Source of the DNA: Bacillota bacterium
GTDB lineage: Bacteria > Bacillota > Sulfobacillia > JAJYWN01 > JAJZPE01
Reading direction: 5' to 3'
DNA: 35,600 nucleotides
Assembly (NCBI GenBank): GCA_036504675.1
Contig: DASXUT010000162.1
Coordinates: 1-35,600 of the forward strand
The notes beneath the pieces were generated by a model. That model saw nothing but the letters and a program-made list of their open reading frames with translations, did not search any database and was not told the DNA's origin. Within the stretch, counting starts at the first letter, position 1; each line of letters starts with the position of its first letter. Positions 7,864 through 25,432 of this stretch are shown one piece after another. The translations under genes were made by a program, and so were the position numbers.

Positions 7864-8532
7864 TCAATATCCCAGTTCAGCTCCCACCAGGATGACGCTA
7901 TAGCTGGACCTCGCCGGCCGCCTTTCATGGATCGTCGTGACCGCGCAGATCCTGTCCGGGGAGGAGCAGTCGGTGCAGCGGCCGGTCACGGCACAGGGGG
8001 TCTTGAGGTGAAGGCGGATGGCGTTCATCGGTGCGGCCACTTCCTTGATCCTCTTGAGGGCCCCGCCAACGTCATCGACCAGCTTGTTGTAGCCGGCGAT
8101 GATGATGGTCCGGCGGGGGCCGAAGATCATCGCCGCGGTCCGGTTGCCGCCGCCGTCCGTGTTGACCAGCTTGCCGTCCAGGGTGACCGCGTTGGAGCTG
8201 GTGATGAAGATGTCGCTGGAGGCCTCTTCGAGATGGATGCGGCGGGCCTCCTCCGCGGAAAGGCCGGGGAGCCAGTGGTGGACCACCCGGTGTCCGCCGT
8301 CCGCGAGCCGTTCGGGGAGGCCCAGTTGTCGGGCGGTCATCGAGCCGGCGACGCCGACCGAGGCACCGTCGGGGATCAGCGCGAGGACCTTGGCCACGGC
8401 CTCTTCCGGGGTGGCCACGTAGGTCGCTTCGAAACCGTTCTTCTTCAGAGCCTTGACGGCCTGCTCCGCACGGGCTCGGGCGTAGGCGGCCGGGACGGCG
8501 CCGAGGAGGTCGGCGGTGATATCCTTGGTCAT
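7864..8532 (-). CDS. LUD-domain protein (YkgG/LutC-like)
   Basis: This 222-residue protein belongs to the LUD (lactate utilisation, formerly DUF162) family. Visible signatures are the Gly-rich VGVAGSMTARQLGL segment, the ITSSNAVTLDGKLVNTDGGG block with the following NRTAAMIFGP, and a C-terminal Cys cluster CTDCSSPDRIC. That cluster occurs in a subset of stand-alone LUD proteins from anaerobes. In LutB/LutC systems the domain belongs to iron-sulfur L-lactate dehydrogenase complexes; for single-domain members the reaction is unknown. The start ATG at 8532 follows an AGGAG site. It is divergent from the AOR pair across about 236 bases, so shared regulation is possible but not shown. Confidence 0.85.
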   Translation of the reverse strand: MTKDITADLLGAVPAAYARARAEQAVKALKKNGFEATYVATPEEAVAKVLALIPDGASVGVAGSMTARQLGLPERLADGGHRVVHHWLPGLSAEEARRIHLEEASSDIFITSSNAVTLDGKLVNTDGGGNRTAAMIFGPRRTIIIAGYNKLVDDVGGALKRIKEVAAPMNAIRLHLKTPCAVTGRCTDCSSPDRICAVTTIHERRPARSSYSVILVGAELGY

Positions 8533-8719: not shown

Positions 8720-8748
8720 TTGACGGCCACCGACGACCCTGCTAGATT
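8720..8748 (+). promoter_or_regulatory. Candidate sigma-A promoter for the ferredoxin-AOR operon
   Basis: TTGACG (8720-8725) is separated by exactly 17 bases from TAGATT (8743-8748). This is a good match to the vegetative consensus in an otherwise GC-rich stretch. Transcription would start near 8755. That leaves a very short leader beginning at the AAGGTGG ribosome site (8755-8761), with the ATG at 8769. The short leader is the main reason for caution. Confidence 0.5.
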
Positions 8749-8768: not shown

Positions 8769-9566
8769 ATGTACGACCTCAGGATCGTCGTTGAAGAGGT
8801 CCGCGGTTTCTGTGACCTGCCGATGCGCCCCGGCGACTACATCGAAGTCAAGGGCGGCCGGATCTGCATCCCGGATGGTGGGTTCTTCTGCCTCTGGGCT
8901 TTGCAGGCCCTGATGCCGATGATTCCCGTCAAACAGCGGCGGGTGGTCGAAGACAATGATTGGCTGCCGGATACGAGCCGGATGGTCTGTCCGGACCCAG
9001 ACGGCCAGGTCATCTTCAGGTTCGAGCGGGTGGCGGCCGATGAAGCGCCGGGCGCGAATGGGGGCGGGAACACGCTCGGGAACGGCGGCCCGACCGCGCC
9101 CAAGACCGCGCCCCGCCGCGAGCCGCCGAAGCGCCTGCTGGTCGACGAGCAGGCCTGTTCCGGCTGCCGTTCCTGCGAGTTGGCCTGCAGCTATGCCCAT
9201 GAGCAAGTCTTCAGCGGCGAGATGGCCCGGGTCGTCGTGACCAAGGCCGAGGCCGCCGGGATCGATCGGCCGACCGTCTGCCGGCAATGCGGGGCCGCCC
9301 GCTGCGTCCAAGCTTGCCCAGAGGGCGCCCTGTCGCGGGACCCCGGGACTCACGCCATCCTCGTCGACGGCCGTCGCTGCACTGGTTGCGGCGACTGCGC
9401 CGAGGCGTGCCCCTTCGGCGCCGTCAGGCTCTCGCCGGCCGGCGGCCGGGCCTTGATCTGCGACCTCTGCGGCGGGTCTCCGGCCTGCGTCGCCGAGTGC
9501 GCCACGGGAGCCCTGACCTACGGCCGGGCCGGTGCCCGGGTCGCGGCCGGGGGTGGCCGAAGATGA
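8769..9566 (+). CDS. TIGR04076 domain fused to a four-cluster ferredoxin (AOR electron-transfer subunit)
   Basis: This is a 265-residue two-part protein. Residues 1-88 form a TIGR04076 domain, a small Cys-containing family of unknown function, with Cys15, Cys41 and Cys74 at its conserved positions. A Gly/Pro/Ala-rich linker follows at about 89-120. Residues 122-265 form a DmsB/HycB-like ferredoxin with 16 cysteines in four groups: 130/133/136/140, 171/174/179/183, 204/207/210/214 and 231/234/240/244. This is enough for four [4Fe-4S] clusters. I prefer the ATG at 8769 because AAGGTGG lies 7 bases upstream; TTG 8748 and ATG 8763 are worse placed. Its stop overlaps the AOR start (ATGA), so it is very probably the electron-carrying partner of that enzyme. 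Confidence 0.85.
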   Translation: MYDLRIVVEEVRGFCDLPMRPGDYIEVKGGRICIPDGGFFCLWALQALMPMIPVKQRRVVEDNDWLPDTSRMVCPDPDGQVIFRFERVAADEAPGANGGGNTLGNGGPTAPKTAPRREPPKRLLVDEQACSGCRSCELACSYAHEQVFSGEMARVVVTKAEAAGIDRPTVCRQCGAARCVQACPEGALSRDPGTHAILVDGRRCTGCGDCAEACPFGAVRLSPAGGRALICDLCGGSPACVAECATGALTYGRAGARVAAGGGRR

Positions 9567-11488
9567 GCGGATCGAGCCACGGGTACGCCGGCCGCATCCT
9601 TCGCATCGACCTGGACCGCCGGGTCTGGCGGGCCGAGCCGCTTGACCACGGCGCCGCCCGGCGTTTCATCGGCGGGCGGGGGTTCAACGTCGCCACGCTT
9701 TACGCCGAGGTGGCCCCGCACACGCCGGGGCTCGACCCGCAAAACCGGCTCTGCTTCGGAGTCGGACCGCTGGTCGGGACCCTTTTCTCCGGGGCCTCCC
9801 GGTTCAACGTCAGCGCCATGTCCCCCCAGACGGGCATCCTCGGGGATTCCAACGCCGGCGGCTTCTTCGGCCCCGAGCTGAAGTTCGCCGGCTGGGACCA
9901 GGTCATCCTGGAAGGCCGGGCCGACTCTCTCATTTACCTGCTGGTGACCGAGGACGGGGTCCAGTTCCGGCCGGCCGACCATTTGCGCGGCCTGGATGTC
10001 TGGGCCACCGACGAGGCCGTCCGCCATGAGCTGGACGACGACCGCGCCCAGGTCGCCGTGGCCGGTCCGGCCGCGGAGAAGGGGGTCAAGTTCGCCGGGA
10101 TCTTCACCAATCTCGTGCGGGCGGCCGCCCGAACGGGGATGGGCACGGTCATGGCGGCCAAGAACGTGAAGGCCATGGCCGTCCGCGGCCGACGGCCGGT
10201 CACGGTGGCCGACCCGACCCGGTTCATGGACCTCGTCCGGACTCTGAACCAGGAGATCAAAGACCACGACCAGTATCAACCCCGCATCGCCCTGGGGACC
10301 ACGCGGCTCCTGGGCTCGCTGAACGAGATGGGCGCCCTGTGCGTCAGGCACTACCAAGTCGGGCGGTTCGAAGCCGCGTCCGAGGTCTCCGGGGAGACCC
10401 TGGCCGGCCGCTACCGGGTCAAGGGAAAGAGCTGCTTCGCCTGCAACATCCCGTGCAGCCGATTCTTCCGCGTGGGCGACGGCAGCTTCGCCGGCCTGGC
10501 CAGCGAGGGCCCGGAGTTCGAGGGGCTGGCCGGCTTCACCTCCAAGCTCGGTCAGACCGACCTGGCCCTAGGCCTGGCGGCCATCGACAAGTGCAATCGT
10601 TACGGCCTGGACGTCATCGGCACGGCCGAGGTCATCGCCTGGGCCATGGAGCTGAGGCAGCGCGGCCTGATGAGCGACCGCGAGGCCGACGGCCTCGAAC
10701 TGACCTGGGGGAATGGCCCGACCATTCTGGCCCTGATCGACAAGATCGCCGTTCGGGAAGGCTTCGGCGACGTCCTCGCCGACGGTGTCCTGGCGGCGGC
10801 CCGGAAGGTCGGGCGGGGCAGCGAGTCTCTGGCCATGCAAGTCAAGGGGCTGGAATTCTTCCAGGCCGATCCGCGCGGGCTCAAGGGCTACGCCCTCGGC
10901 CTGGCCGTCGCCAGCCGGGGCGGGGACCACCTGCGCTCGGAGCCGTCCTTCGAATTCAGCGAGGATGCCCCGGCCGGTCAGCGGCGCTTCGGCGCCGCCG
11001 AGTCGGCCTTCCGCCTGGAGCACAAGGGCAAGGGCCGGCTGGTCAAGCATTTCGAGGAACTGTGCGCCCTGGCCGACTGCCTGGAGGCATGCAAGAACAC
11101 CATCGTCAACATGGAGGTCCTGCCCTTCGACCGGGCGGCCGAAATCCTGCGGGCGGCCACCGGCCTGGACTTCGACGGCAACCAGGTCCAGCAGGCCTGC
11201 GAGCGCCTGATCAACCTGGAACGCCTCTACAATGCCAGGGAGGGTCTGAGCAGAGCCGATGACCGTCTTCCCGAACGCTTCCTGAAGGAGCCCCTGCCCG
11301 CCGGAAGCGGGCCCTCCACCGGCAGCGTCGTTGAGTTGGAGCCGATGCTCGACGAGTATTACTCGGCCCGCGGCTGGGATCTGGCGACCGGCCTGCCTGC
11401 CCCGGAGAAGCTCGCCGAACTCGGGCTCGGCGAAGAAGCCCGCCAGGTCGAGCTGAAGCGGACAGGCCGCGGACGAATCGGCCGCTGA
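9563..11488 (+). CDS. aor: Tungsten-type aldehyde:ferredoxin oxidoreductase
   Basis: This 641-residue enzyme would oxidise aldehydes to carboxylic acids, or run in reverse, using a bis-pterin tungsten or molybdenum centre and ferredoxin. The N-terminal AOR domain opens GYAGRILRIDLDRR and has the FIGGRGFN segment that starts the pterin-binding region. The cluster cysteines are Cys291, Cys294 and Cys298 (C-x2-C-x3-C) plus Cys510 in ADCLEAC. Their positions are close to those of Pyrococcus furiosus AOR (288/291/295/494, from memory). The start is fixed by the 4-base ATGA overlap with the ferredoxin gene; the open frame extending back to 9287 is only readthrough inside that gene. Substrate preference cannot be read. 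A hairpin at 11551-11577 lies 63 bases past the stop. Confidence 0.93.
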   Translation: MSGSSHGYAGRILRIDLDRRVWRAEPLDHGAARRFIGGRGFNVATLYAEVAPHTPGLDPQNRLCFGVGPLVGTLFSGASRFNVSAMSPQTGILGDSNAGGFFGPELKFAGWDQVILEGRADSLIYLLVTEDGVQFRPADHLRGLDVWATDEAVRHELDDDRAQVAVAGPAAEKGVKFAGIFTNLVRAAARTGMGTVMAAKNVKAMAVRGRRPVTVADPTRFMDLVRTLNQEIKDHDQYQPRIALGTTRLLGSLNEMGALCVRHYQVGRFEAASEVSGETLAGRYRVKGKSCFACNIPCSRFFRVGDGSFAGLASEGPEFEGLAGFTSKLGQTDLALGLAAIDKCNRYGLDVIGTAEVIAWAMELRQRGLMSDREADGLELTWGNGPTILALIDKIAVREGFGDVLADGVLAAARKVGRGSESLAMQVKGLEFFQADPRGLKGYALGLAVASRGGDHLRSEPSFEFSEDAPAGQRRFGAAESAFRLEHKGKGRLVKHFEELCALADCLEACKNTIVNMEVLPFDRAAEILRAATGLDFDGNQVQQACERLINLERLYNAREGLSRADDRLPERFLKEPLPAGSGPSTGSVVELEPMLDEYYSARGWDLATGLPAPEKLAELGLGEEARQVELKRTGRGRIGR

Positions 11489-23909: not shown

Positions 23910-25022
23910 TCACTTGAGGCGTCCGTACTTCCGCAGGACGGCCACCAGTTCGTCGATGGGGATGGCGTAGGCCGTGTTGCCGTCGCGCCCCTCGGCCGTC
24001 TCGGCCATCAGGAGCGAATTGAGGACGGCCTCCTCGACGGCCTCGATGGCCGCCTGGAAGAACGGGTTCATCCTCGACCGCGAGCCGATCATCACCTCGA
24101 GGGGCATCGTGTTGGGCCGGTAGTTGCGGGGGATGGTGCAGCCGGTGCTGAAGGCGATCATGAACTCGCCGCTGCCATAGGAGGCATAGGATCCGGCCCG
24201 GCCGAAGCCCAGGGCGGTCCGCTTGGCCAACTGCCGCAGGTGGTGTGGAAGGAATGGGGCGTCGGTGGCGACGACGATGACCCCCGACCCCTCGACGGTG
24301 TCGGTGGTGGTCAGACCGGATATCTCCTCGCCCACCGGAACCCCCAAGACCTGCATGGCCCAACGTTCTCCGAAGTTGGTCAAGACAAGGACGCCGAGGG
24401 TGTATGTCCTGTCGCCCAGCGTGATCAGCCGGGAAGCCGTACCGATTCCGGACTTGAAGTCGAAGCAGGTCATCCCGAGCCCGGCCCCGACGACGCCTTC
24501 GGCCACCGGGCCGGCGACGGCCGTCTCGATGGCCCTGATCACGTGCTCTTCCTTGATGTGGCCGCCCTGCATGTCGTTGAGGTAGCTGTCATCGCACTCG
24601 GCGACGATGGGCACCACCGGGTCGTGGGTCAGCCCCAGGCTTGGGTATCGCTTGATCATCCAGTGGAGGACGGCGTCGCGGACCACCCCGATGCTGACCG
24701 TGTTGGTCAGGGCGATGGGGGCCTCGATGATCCCCAGTTCCTCGATCATCACGGCGCCGTTAATCTCGCCGGCCGAGGCCAGGACGAAGTGGCCGGCGAA
24801 GAGCCGGTTCAGAAAGCCGTCCTGGAACAACTGGTCGGGCACGACCACGGTGACCCCGGTTCGGGCCGGCCCCTCGCCGGGGACCAGTCTCCCGTATCCA
24901 TGGACAACGTCGCAGTGCCCGACGCGGACGCCGGGAACGTCGGTGATGGCGTTGTGGACTCCGGGCGCGAACCGGCCGATGTTGATCCCCAAGTCCCTAG
25001 CCCGCTTGCGCCGCTCCGCCAT
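23910..25022 (-). CDS. P1 family peptidase (DmpA / beta-aminopeptidase type)
   Basis: This 370-residue Ntn-like hydrolase is of the DmpA/BapA class. The precursor is expected to cleave itself before a Ser that becomes the N-terminal nucleophile. The likely site is Gly245-Ser246 in the sequence VEGSGVIVVATDAP, which matches the family position near residue 250. Family signatures include the N-terminal ITDVPGVRVGHCDV and CDDSYLNDMQGGHI. Relatives cleave N-terminal D- or beta-amino-acid peptides. No signal peptide is seen. The ATG at 25022 has a GGGGG site just upstream. The cobO gene follows after 30 bases. Confidence 0.92.
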   Translation of the reverse strand: MAERRKRARDLGINIGRFAPGVHNAITDVPGVRVGHCDVVHGYGRLVPGEGPARTGVTVVVPDQLFQDGFLNRLFAGHFVLASAGEINGAVMIEELGIIEAPIALTNTVSIGVVRDAVLHWMIKRYPSLGLTHDPVVPIVAECDDSYLNDMQGGHIKEEHVIRAIETAVAGPVAEGVVGAGLGMTCFDFKSGIGTASRLITLGDRTYTLGVLVLTNFGERWAMQVLGVPVGEEISGLTTTDTVEGSGVIVVATDAPFLPHHLRQLAKRTALGFGRAGSYASYGSGEFMIAFSTGCTIPRNYRPNTMPLEVMIGSRSRMNPFFQAAIEAVEEAVLNSLLMAETAEGRDGNTAYAIPIDELVAVLRKYGRLK

Positions 25023-25067
25023 GGTTCCCCCTCTCCCTCGGAAGTTGGAGCTTCCGCAGTTGATTCT

Positions 25068-25091
25068 CGGGCCTGCACTTCGGCAGGCCCG
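25068..25091. repeat. Intergenic inverted repeat between P1 peptidase and TIGR04076 genes
   Basis: A perfect 9-bp stem (25068-25076 with 25083-25091) has a 6-base loop. Neither side has a T-run, so it may be a weak terminator, an mRNA-stabilising hairpin or an operator for the P1 peptidase gene, which begins 46 bases away. Confidence 0.5.
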
Positions 25092-25159
25092 GGGTATACT
25101 CCTTCAGAGCGGGACTGGACCGGCGGAAGTAGGATTCGCGAGGGGTCGGGGCGAAGGAT

Positions 25160-25432
25160 TCATTGTCCGCCCTTGACCGGACGGATTTCGAAGACCACCG
25201 GGTTGGCCGCGTCCGGGCAGGCGACGGTGACCCGACCGGACTCCTTTGCCCACGGAAACGAGCCGCCGAGTTGGATCACCCGAAGCCCCGGGAACATCGC
25301 CTGCCAGGCGGACACACAGATCCCGGCCGGGGTCGTCCCGCGGATCTGCCAGGTGTCGCCGACCTTATGCCCGATCCCGCAGAATCCTTTCTGCTCAATG
25401 ACGGTGACTTCGACTTCCGGCGTTCTCGCCAT
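25160..25432 (-). CDS. TIGR04076 family protein (stand-alone)
   Basis: This 90-residue protein is of the same small family as the first domain of the AOR-linked ferredoxin at 8769. It shares the opening strand, a GFC motif (Cys18), a mid-chain Cys39 ahead of a W-x-A segment, and an A-C-P-D motif (Cys72). The fused copy has the corresponding Cys15, Cys41 and Cys74. The three cysteines could bind a metal or act in redox chemistry, but no function is established for the family. The ATG at 25432 follows AAGGGGG. It is divergent from the small membrane protein gene. Confidence 0.8.
   Translation of the reverse strand: MARTPEVEVTVIEQKGFCGIGHKVGDTWQIRGTTPAGICVSAWQAMFPGLRVIQLGGSFPWAKESGRVTVACPDAANPVVFEIRPVKGGQ

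Follow-up and report, generated by a model that had tools for sequence, protein, structure and literature searches.

The gene at positions 8769-9566 (+) of the window, by which is meant the whole 35,600-nucleotide stretch of Bacillota DNA analysed here, encodes a protein whose predicted domain composition shows it to be the WorS subunit of a two-subunit tungsten oxidoreductase (WOR), carrying a TIGR04076 domain at its N terminus. When homologous loci are compared, this domain (TIG in descriptions of gene layouts; WorT for the proposed component) looks like a third component of the enzymes formed by one clade of the catalytic subunit WorL, occurring as a separate gene, in tandem, or fused to the ferredoxin.

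The TIGR04076-WorS fusion and its operon

The fusion is a 265-residue ORF, the start of which can be aligned at the same position across its homologues; a ribosome-binding-like AAGGTGG lies 5' of the ATG at 8769. A sigma-70-like promoter candidate, proposed from its consensus match alone (TTGACG-17-TAGATT, with TG before the second hexamer, 8720-8748 (+)), agrees with the consensus at 9 of 12 positions, one such site being found compared with 0.3 expected in shuffled sequences. Residues 1-88 (8769-9032 (+)) match the TIGR04076.1 HMM with E 1.9e-19 and 70.0 bits, well above the curated cutoff of 33, confirming the family assignment given in a preliminary description of this DNA; a whole-genome TIGR04076 search gave 72.6 bits at 8769-9032. 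Within this domain, Cys15 (8811-8813), Cys41 (8889-8891), Cys74 (8988-8990) and Asp76 (8994-8996), all on the (+) strand, are picked out by their conservation. A variable linker (residues 89-121, 9033-9131 (+)), the middle of which is modelled with low confidence, leads to the WorS/AorA-type polyferredoxin domain (residues 122-253, 9132-9527 (+)).

The ferredoxin part has four 4Fe-4S motifs with sixteen cysteines (C130/133/136/140, C171/174/179/183, C204/207/210/214 and C231/234/240/244), all invariant in 26 aligned fusions (a first set of 27, one near-copy omitted). Its FS1-FS2 loop (9189-9278 (+)) has 30 residues, as in WorS proteins without TIG encoded beside WorL. Among small subunits of tungsten AORs of solved structure, it matches 8c0z_C (1.5e-29), 6x6u_B (6.5e-26), 9mqx_E (1.3e-25) and 6x1o_B (1.4e-25), and the first five Foldseek matches obtained with a model of the whole fusion (E 4e-14 to 1e-12) are likewise solved WOR small subunits.

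The stop codon of the fusion (TGA, 9564-9566) overlaps the ATG (9563) of the next gene in an ATGA arrangement. This gene (9563-11488 (+)) encodes the 641-residue WorL, a tungsten-type aldehyde ferredoxin oxidoreductase catalytic subunit with both AFOR domains (PF02730 and PF01314; 225 and 406 bits), the best solved relatives of which are 1aor, 9mqx_D, 9g7j_A and 8c0z_A. Its alignment with Pyrococcus furiosus AOR (1aor) spans nearly the full length, and the CxxCxxxC stretch of the latter is kept. The ORF, the HMM match and the ATGA overlap thus bear out the earlier description of a TIGR04076 domain fused to a four-cluster ferredoxin that is coupled to a tungsten-type AOR. Because the ORFs flanking the fusion-WorL pair on both sides sit on the opposite strand, the operon appears to consist of these two genes; the upstream neighbour (7864-8532 (-)) encodes a LUD-domain protein.

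An Rfam search of the window gave no match, and no relative was found in the viral contigs searched. AFOR_C is matched 12 times in the window genome and TIGR04076 five times, twice within the window; the second of the two window copies (25160-25432 (-), 70.6 bits) is free-standing, has no WorL beside it, and adjoins a peptidase S58 gene (23913-25103 (-)).

Recurrence of the link and gene layouts

Altogether, 41 distinct fused TIG-WorS proteins were collected, 30 of them beside WorL, a recurrence that excludes fusion by chance. The first genome set yielded 27 fusion loci including that of the window, with WorL directly beside the fusion in 21 and absent there in 6; C15, C41 and C74 are common to these fusions (26 of 27 aligned). 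Among the fusions, the TIG domain shows high conservation (mean column identity 73% over 22 sequences).

A scan of named-species genomes, using the TIG domain alone as query, gave 80 loci, some of which come from the same genomes as the first set. By local profiles, WorL lies within 1.5 kb on the same strand in 58 of the 80 (24 with fused, 22 with single and 12 with tandem TIG), a proportion which overstates the link for TIGR04076 as a whole, since its loci were ranked by their similarity to WOR-linked domains and do not constitute a sample of that family. The remaining loci have only WorS (4/80) or neither WorS nor WorL (18/80). Tandem TIG domains or gene pairs are present at 14 of the 80 loci.

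The layout in which a TIG-WorS fusion is followed by WorL is found mainly in Bacillota, including Desulforamulus putei DSM 12395 and D. aeronauticus DSM 10349; it is also present in Desulfovibrio cuneatus DSM 11391 (L129), in a Thermotogaceae MAG (L123) and in a Chloroflexi-labelled MAG (L116). TIG, WorS and WorL are three consecutive genes in lineages including Thermodesulfobacteriota, Aminicenantes and KSB1, as well as in a Phycisphaerae MAG, Heimdallarchaeota and Thermoplasmatota. The order TIG-TIG, WorS, WorL occurs in, among others, Gemmatimonadota, a Zixibacteria MAG and an Acidobacteria MAG, and WorS, WorL, TIG-TIG at five loci, four in Chloroflexota (L136, L137, L138, L169) and one in Acidobacteria (L148). 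The TIG-WorL link therefore persists while gene order changes, TIG lying before WorS-WorL or, as TIG-TIG, after WorL. No ORF joining TIG to WorL was seen in the surveyed loci. One genome has a second copy of the operon, on a contig (G261:C74; L076/L130) where WorL is split into several frames, the intact copy being on another contig (L082/L109).

One WorL clade carries the link

Searches starting from WorL covered the window's phylum, the best three candidates per genome being scored, and gave 22 matches at E 1e-150 in 398 genomes. Among the 15 with at least 50% identity to the window WorL (itself included), 13 have the fusion beside them, one (G017) has it 3.4 kb away and one (G136) has none; the seven remaining matches, with 41-43% identity, lack TIG in the 1.5 kb examined. 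The G136 protein, a clade WorL fused to WorS, falls inside the fusion sub-clade. A TIGR04076 search of the G136 genome at E 0.001 found nothing, which shows that a clade member may lack the component.

Eight named genomes together gave 91 WorL matches (up to 34 per genome, fragments included). TIG lies within 1 kb of seven of these, each of which is the closest in its genome to the window WorL; at one more WorL it is 1.3 kb away, on the opposite strand. These genomes were picked for a known TIG locus, and so the result speaks to specificity rather than to frequency. The Desulfobacterales chromosome G447 (the genome of L144) has 34 WorL-like matches, one of which has TIGR04076 within 1 kb. In the Bathyarchaeota genome G445 (that of L151), which has 12 TIGR04076 copies, there is no TIG within 40 kb of the WorL closest to that of the window, and two TIG copies lie 1.9-2.2 kb from another WorL, which is 39% identical; four TIGR04076 genes are consecutive in this genome, at 154468-155644.

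Phylogenetic analysis unites, in one clade, all WorL proteins with TIG on the same strand within 1.8 kb, together with the clade WorL of five genomes that have stand-alone fusions. The clade has 67 rows and local support 100 in a FastTree analysis of 113 rows; an earlier version, in which it had 62 rows, was built from 86 sequences with at least 450 aligned residues and identical sequences removed, 27 being added later. In an IQ-TREE set of 62 of the 113 rows, with 20 of the 61 linked and 5 of the 15 'orphgenome_other' rows, SH-aLRT support is 100 and the clade has 26 rows. The WorL proteins of L192, L194 and L202, where TIG is farther off or on the other strand, fall outside it. WorS and WorL are joined in a single ORF, 867-887 codons from stop to stop, in three clade genomes (L251, L258, L270).

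Fusions apart from WorL

Five of the six non-adjacent fusions of the first 27 are beside housekeeping or unrelated genes, and the sixth (G017) is 3.4 kb from a WorL that has its own WorS. WorL elsewhere in the genome was sought for these six, the other fusions that have no adjacent WorL being L101, L118, L119, L121 and L126; 20 WorL matches from G048, G060, G016, G007 and G030, chosen from a larger number, were examined. A clade WorL is present in all six genomes. It has its own WorS in G048 (L240), G060 (L243) and G017 (L072), and is fused to WorS in G016 (L251) and G030 (L258). The G007 gene (L252) is broken and absent from the trees, its two pieces being 73-76% identical to L243 by BLAST. 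The contig ends 0.8 kb past the fusion at L126 and 2.2 kb past it at L121, such that a WorL there could be missed. The TIG-ferredoxin fusions of L119 (5944-6687 (+)) and L121 (1776-2558 (+)), in records named Ruthenibacterium and Angelakisella, have short FS1-FS2 loops and no adjacent WorL.

The length of the FS1-FS2 loop separates the two kinds of fusion. Every one of the 29 fusions that serve as the sole WorS next to WorL has a loop of 30 residues (29 in one case), and 58 of 59 WorS proteins without TIG beside WorL have one of 30 or 31; in fusions without adjacent WorL its length ranges from 14 to 37, and differs from 30 in 10 of 11. At L123 the loop has 18 residues, and a second, ordinary WorS lies between the fusion and WorL. 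In the AOR of Aromatoleum aromaticum, FS1 and FS2 of AorA face the catalytic subunit (PMC10413684). We read the operon-type fusion as a WorS that would dock to WorL, and the stand-alone type as a probable extra TIG-ferredoxin carrier; TIG accompanies the ferredoxin in both.

The wider TIGR04076 family

Cys15, Cys41 and Cys74 are present in all 175 TIGR04076 domains compared, linked and unlinked, and Asp76 in 173, the set counting some genomes twice. The two domains with Ser/Ala in place of Asp76, L008 316-546 (+) on contig C193 of the window genome and L089 8146-8382 (+), retain all three cysteines. The cysteines are also invariant, and G22, A44, W65 and V81 nearly so, in an alignment of 89 rows, from which the 12 most divergent members of a dereplicated set of 101 were left out. 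A tree of the domain, poorly resolved on its 85 columns, has a group of 100 rows (local support 91) comprising all WorL-adjacent rows, all fusions and 13 unlinked rows.

The other TIGR04076 loci of the window's phylum were sampled at approximately every second remaining match (40 loci, L179-L218, several of which end at contig ends). No WorL is nearby (about 5 kb) at 37 of these; the exceptions are L192, with WorL 0.13 kb away on the opposite strand, and L194 and L202, with WorL at about 3.5 kb. Among the neighbours of free-standing TIGR04076 genes, no Pfam family occurs in more than two of the 59 ORFs scanned (64 found, 5 omitted). Over 398 genomes of the phylum, with the presence lists for TIGR04076, MoeA and WorL assumed to refer to the same genomes, TIGR04076 is associated neither with MoeA (77/106 vs 189/292, p 0.15) nor with WorL (60/106 vs 165/292, p 1.0). 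A general AOR partnership of TIGR04076 is rejected on the 3/40 loci with WorL in reach and the lack of a shared neighbour, and a family-wide Moco link is rejected, at the available sensitivity, for want of MoeA enrichment.

The proposal in the preliminary description that TIGR04076 works near AOR electron transfer is consequently borne out for a single WorL clade and a single TIGR04076 subgroup, and fails for TIGR04076 generally; the survey of genomes that it suggested did reveal a wider link beyond the window, without co-occurrence with WorL or MoeA across the 398 genomes. As unlinked TIGR04076 proteins exist outside the subgroup, a WOR-specific role cannot be that of the whole family, which must have a wider role, the WOR-linked form being one use. 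A table row in a Bilophila study describes TIGR04076 as 'potentially involved in redox reactions or iron cluster metabolism'. Longer TIGR04076 ORFs of 279-305 codons, with shared neighbours and no WorL in the stretch examined, are present in two genomes (L085 1130-1969 (-), L086 8138-9055 (+) and L087 7091-8008 (-)).

Predicted fold of the TIGR04076 domain

Structure searches with the whole fusion are dominated by the ferredoxin part, and the TIG domain (residues 1-92) was therefore modelled alone, with a mean pLDDT of 94.3. VIA-align placed three chains first (2we8_A, Z 8.1; 2we7_A, 7.4; 3on5_A, 7.3), the next chain scoring 3.0. The rmsd to these XdhC N-terminal domains is 2.4-2.8 over 74-78 of the 92 residues, although Z values of 7-8 may arise by chance. 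The top Foldseek matches are 3on5 (prob 0.84) and 2we7 (prob 0.80), with an E of only 0.11, and there is no match at E 0.001. Membership of 3on5 and 2we7/2we8 in the XdhC family is supported by a search with an XdhC_CoxI profile from the same phylum, which at E 0.01 matches exactly these two PDB sequences, in the same regions.

Sequence comparisons do not reproduce this likeness. With hhalign, TIG and XdhC give Prob 0.1 and no sequence relation; XdhC_CoxI (PF02625) is absent from the 14 Pfam families tallied for 89 domains at E 5; and a TIG profile run against the PDB finds no XdhC, only 2jdj at E 0.7. A semi-global profile alignment does pair TIG C41 and C74 with two conserved XdhC cysteines, though weakly (Z 3.2), 3 of 150 shuffles scoring as high and the reversed profile reaching a fairly high 19.8 vs 24.4. 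Homology to XdhC is not supported by sequence on these grounds (the hhalign probability, the lack of a Pfam match and the weak shuffle test), and so the domain is filed as TIGR04076 only, with the XdhC likeness kept as a lead.

Relationship to known systems

Class II WORs consist of WorL plus WorS, examples being PfASOR and CbGOR (Putumbaka et al. 2026, PMC13328260). The window system resembles them in having a WorL with AFOR_N and AFOR_C, a four-cluster WorS that is adjacent and translationally coupled, and neither WorN nor WorABC; the flanking ORFs, of which the upstream one encodes the LUD-domain protein, are on the other strand. It differs in the N-terminal TIGR04076 domain of WorS. By gene content it is a Class II WOR plus an extra domain, its acceptor and metal being predicted. 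The main text of PMC13328260 contains neither the string 4076 nor the words 'fusion' or 'chaperone', and among openly licensed PMC papers, supplements not included, no report of a TIGR04076-WOR fusion or of an XdhC-WOR link was found.

AorA of A. aromaticum (PDB 8c0z) is the closest solved small subunit by sequence and is among the top structural matches, whereas the TIGR04076 profile, at E 10, finds no AorA among the PDB chains, and the AorA filament helix is not recognised in the window protein. With respect to TIGR04076 itself, the window domain scores above the HMM cutoff and shares three cysteines with unlinked members, most sampled members of the phylum differing from it in lacking a nearby WorL or a common neighbour. 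The N-terminal domain of XdhC_CoxI (PF02625) is the closest fold in the PDB comparison, with two cysteines coinciding in one alignment, but no homology to it was found at the sequence level, and TIG lacks the C-terminal half of XdhC.

Discussion

The invariant cysteines of the TIG domain fit a candidate metal or redox site, and TIG joins the ferredoxin, never WorL, in the surveyed loci, which would place it on the electron-exit side. The genomes with a stand-alone fusion retain a clade WorL that has a WorS of its own, whether as a separate gene or fused, and this also favours a ferredoxin-side reading. We tentatively propose, with a confidence that stops somewhat short of even, that TIG is a lineage-specific, permanent WOR component on the electron-exit side, providing a putative Cys3/Asp site and a docking surface. 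By analogy with the families concerned, WorL would oxidise an aldehyde, possibly amino-acid-derived, at a tungsten-bis-pterin site, and electrons would pass from its own cluster to the four WorS clusters. WorT may be retained in the complex, on the side of the ferredoxin; its Cys3/Asp site could be a small metal, Fe-S or thiol site acting at electron exit, and its surface, together with this site, might dock or gate the next electron acceptor. Alongside a separate WorS, the TIG-ferredoxin would serve as an extra dedicated carrier.

The predicted XdhC-like fold, a possibility beyond the metal or redox site and the docking domain suggested in the preliminary description, points rather to cofactor handling. 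XdhC chaperones bind Mo-MPT, retain it while it is sulfurated and then insert it in xanthine dehydrogenase; the XdhC gene is beside that of its enzyme, and one cysteine is conserved in almost all members (PMC2997495). TIG may thus be a tethered, XdhC-like domain that binds tungsten-pterin, or carries sulfur on a cysteine, and aids WorL maturation. In its favour, the confidently modelled TIG fold (pLDDT 94) matches well only XdhC N-terminal domains among the chains compared, Foldseek also puts 3on5 and 2we7 first, the XdhC_CoxI profile supports these sequences as family members, and C41 and C74 fall on two conserved XdhC cysteines in one alignment. We nevertheless consider such a role, though second in probability among the explanations, rather unlikely, given that the Foldseek E is only 0.11 and the Z values are of a size that the tool itself allows to be chance, that hhalign and Pfam find no XdhC relation and the reversed profile scores fairly high, that TIG lacks the C-terminal half of XdhC, and that genomes with TIGR04076 are not enriched in MoeA. 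It would, moreover, be unusual for a chaperone to be fused 1:1 to such a subunit for electron transfer. A combined reading, in which the third component has an XdhC N-terminal fold and would form a cysteine-based cofactor/metal module, built permanently into the electron-transfer subunit, that joins maturation and electron transfer in one protein, we hold to be unlikely.

The tandem TIG domains or gene pairs at 14/80 loci, and the filaments formed in A. aromaticum by a relative of the window WorS (PMC10413684), raise the alternative of an assembly module, in which TIG-TIG contacts dimerise WorSL, or nucleate or cap a WorS filament resembling the AorA nanowire. Those filaments, however, depend on a conserved C-terminal AorA helix (PMC10413684), the end of the window protein is modelled as one short helix (256-260) with falling confidence, and the invariant cysteines suggest more than an interface; of the explanations considered this seems the least probable. 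Scarcely better is the prospect that TIG is a passenger with its own cellular role, fused to or kept beside WOR without contributing to it. TIGR04076 is indeed common without any WorL, and the G136 genome manages without TIGR04076, but the link is kept in separate, tandem, fused and reordered layouts across many phyla within one WorL clade, and the TIG domain of the fusions shows the high column identity given above. The electron-exit component thus remains our preferred, if tentative, reading.

As to substrates, the gene neighbourhoods of several lineages suggest uptake or metabolism of amino acids. ABC genes of the branched-chain amino-acid type lie beside L074, and L144 and L145 each have a Peripla_BP_6 gene as neighbour; amino-acid permeases adjoin L078, L111 and L129, and L111, which is identical with locus L084, is also next to a PLP enzyme gene. 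Amino acids are common ligands of Peripla_BP_6 proteins. Since amino-acid transport genes are neighbours in several lineages, aldehydes derived from amino acids are plausible as substrates, although nothing of the kind is suggested by the ORFs that flank the window operon.

Tungsten oxidoreductases occur widely among bacteria and archaea, human-microbiome members included, yet a physiological role has been defined for a member of only 5 of their 92 clades (PMC13328260). The present findings indicate that one tungsten oxidoreductase lineage is marked by a conserved extra component, and through the link to WOR the uncharacterised TIGR04076 domain gains a first partner whose chemistry is known. 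Should the resemblance to the XdhC fold prove meaningful, it would offer a way into the maturation of WOR-family enzymes.
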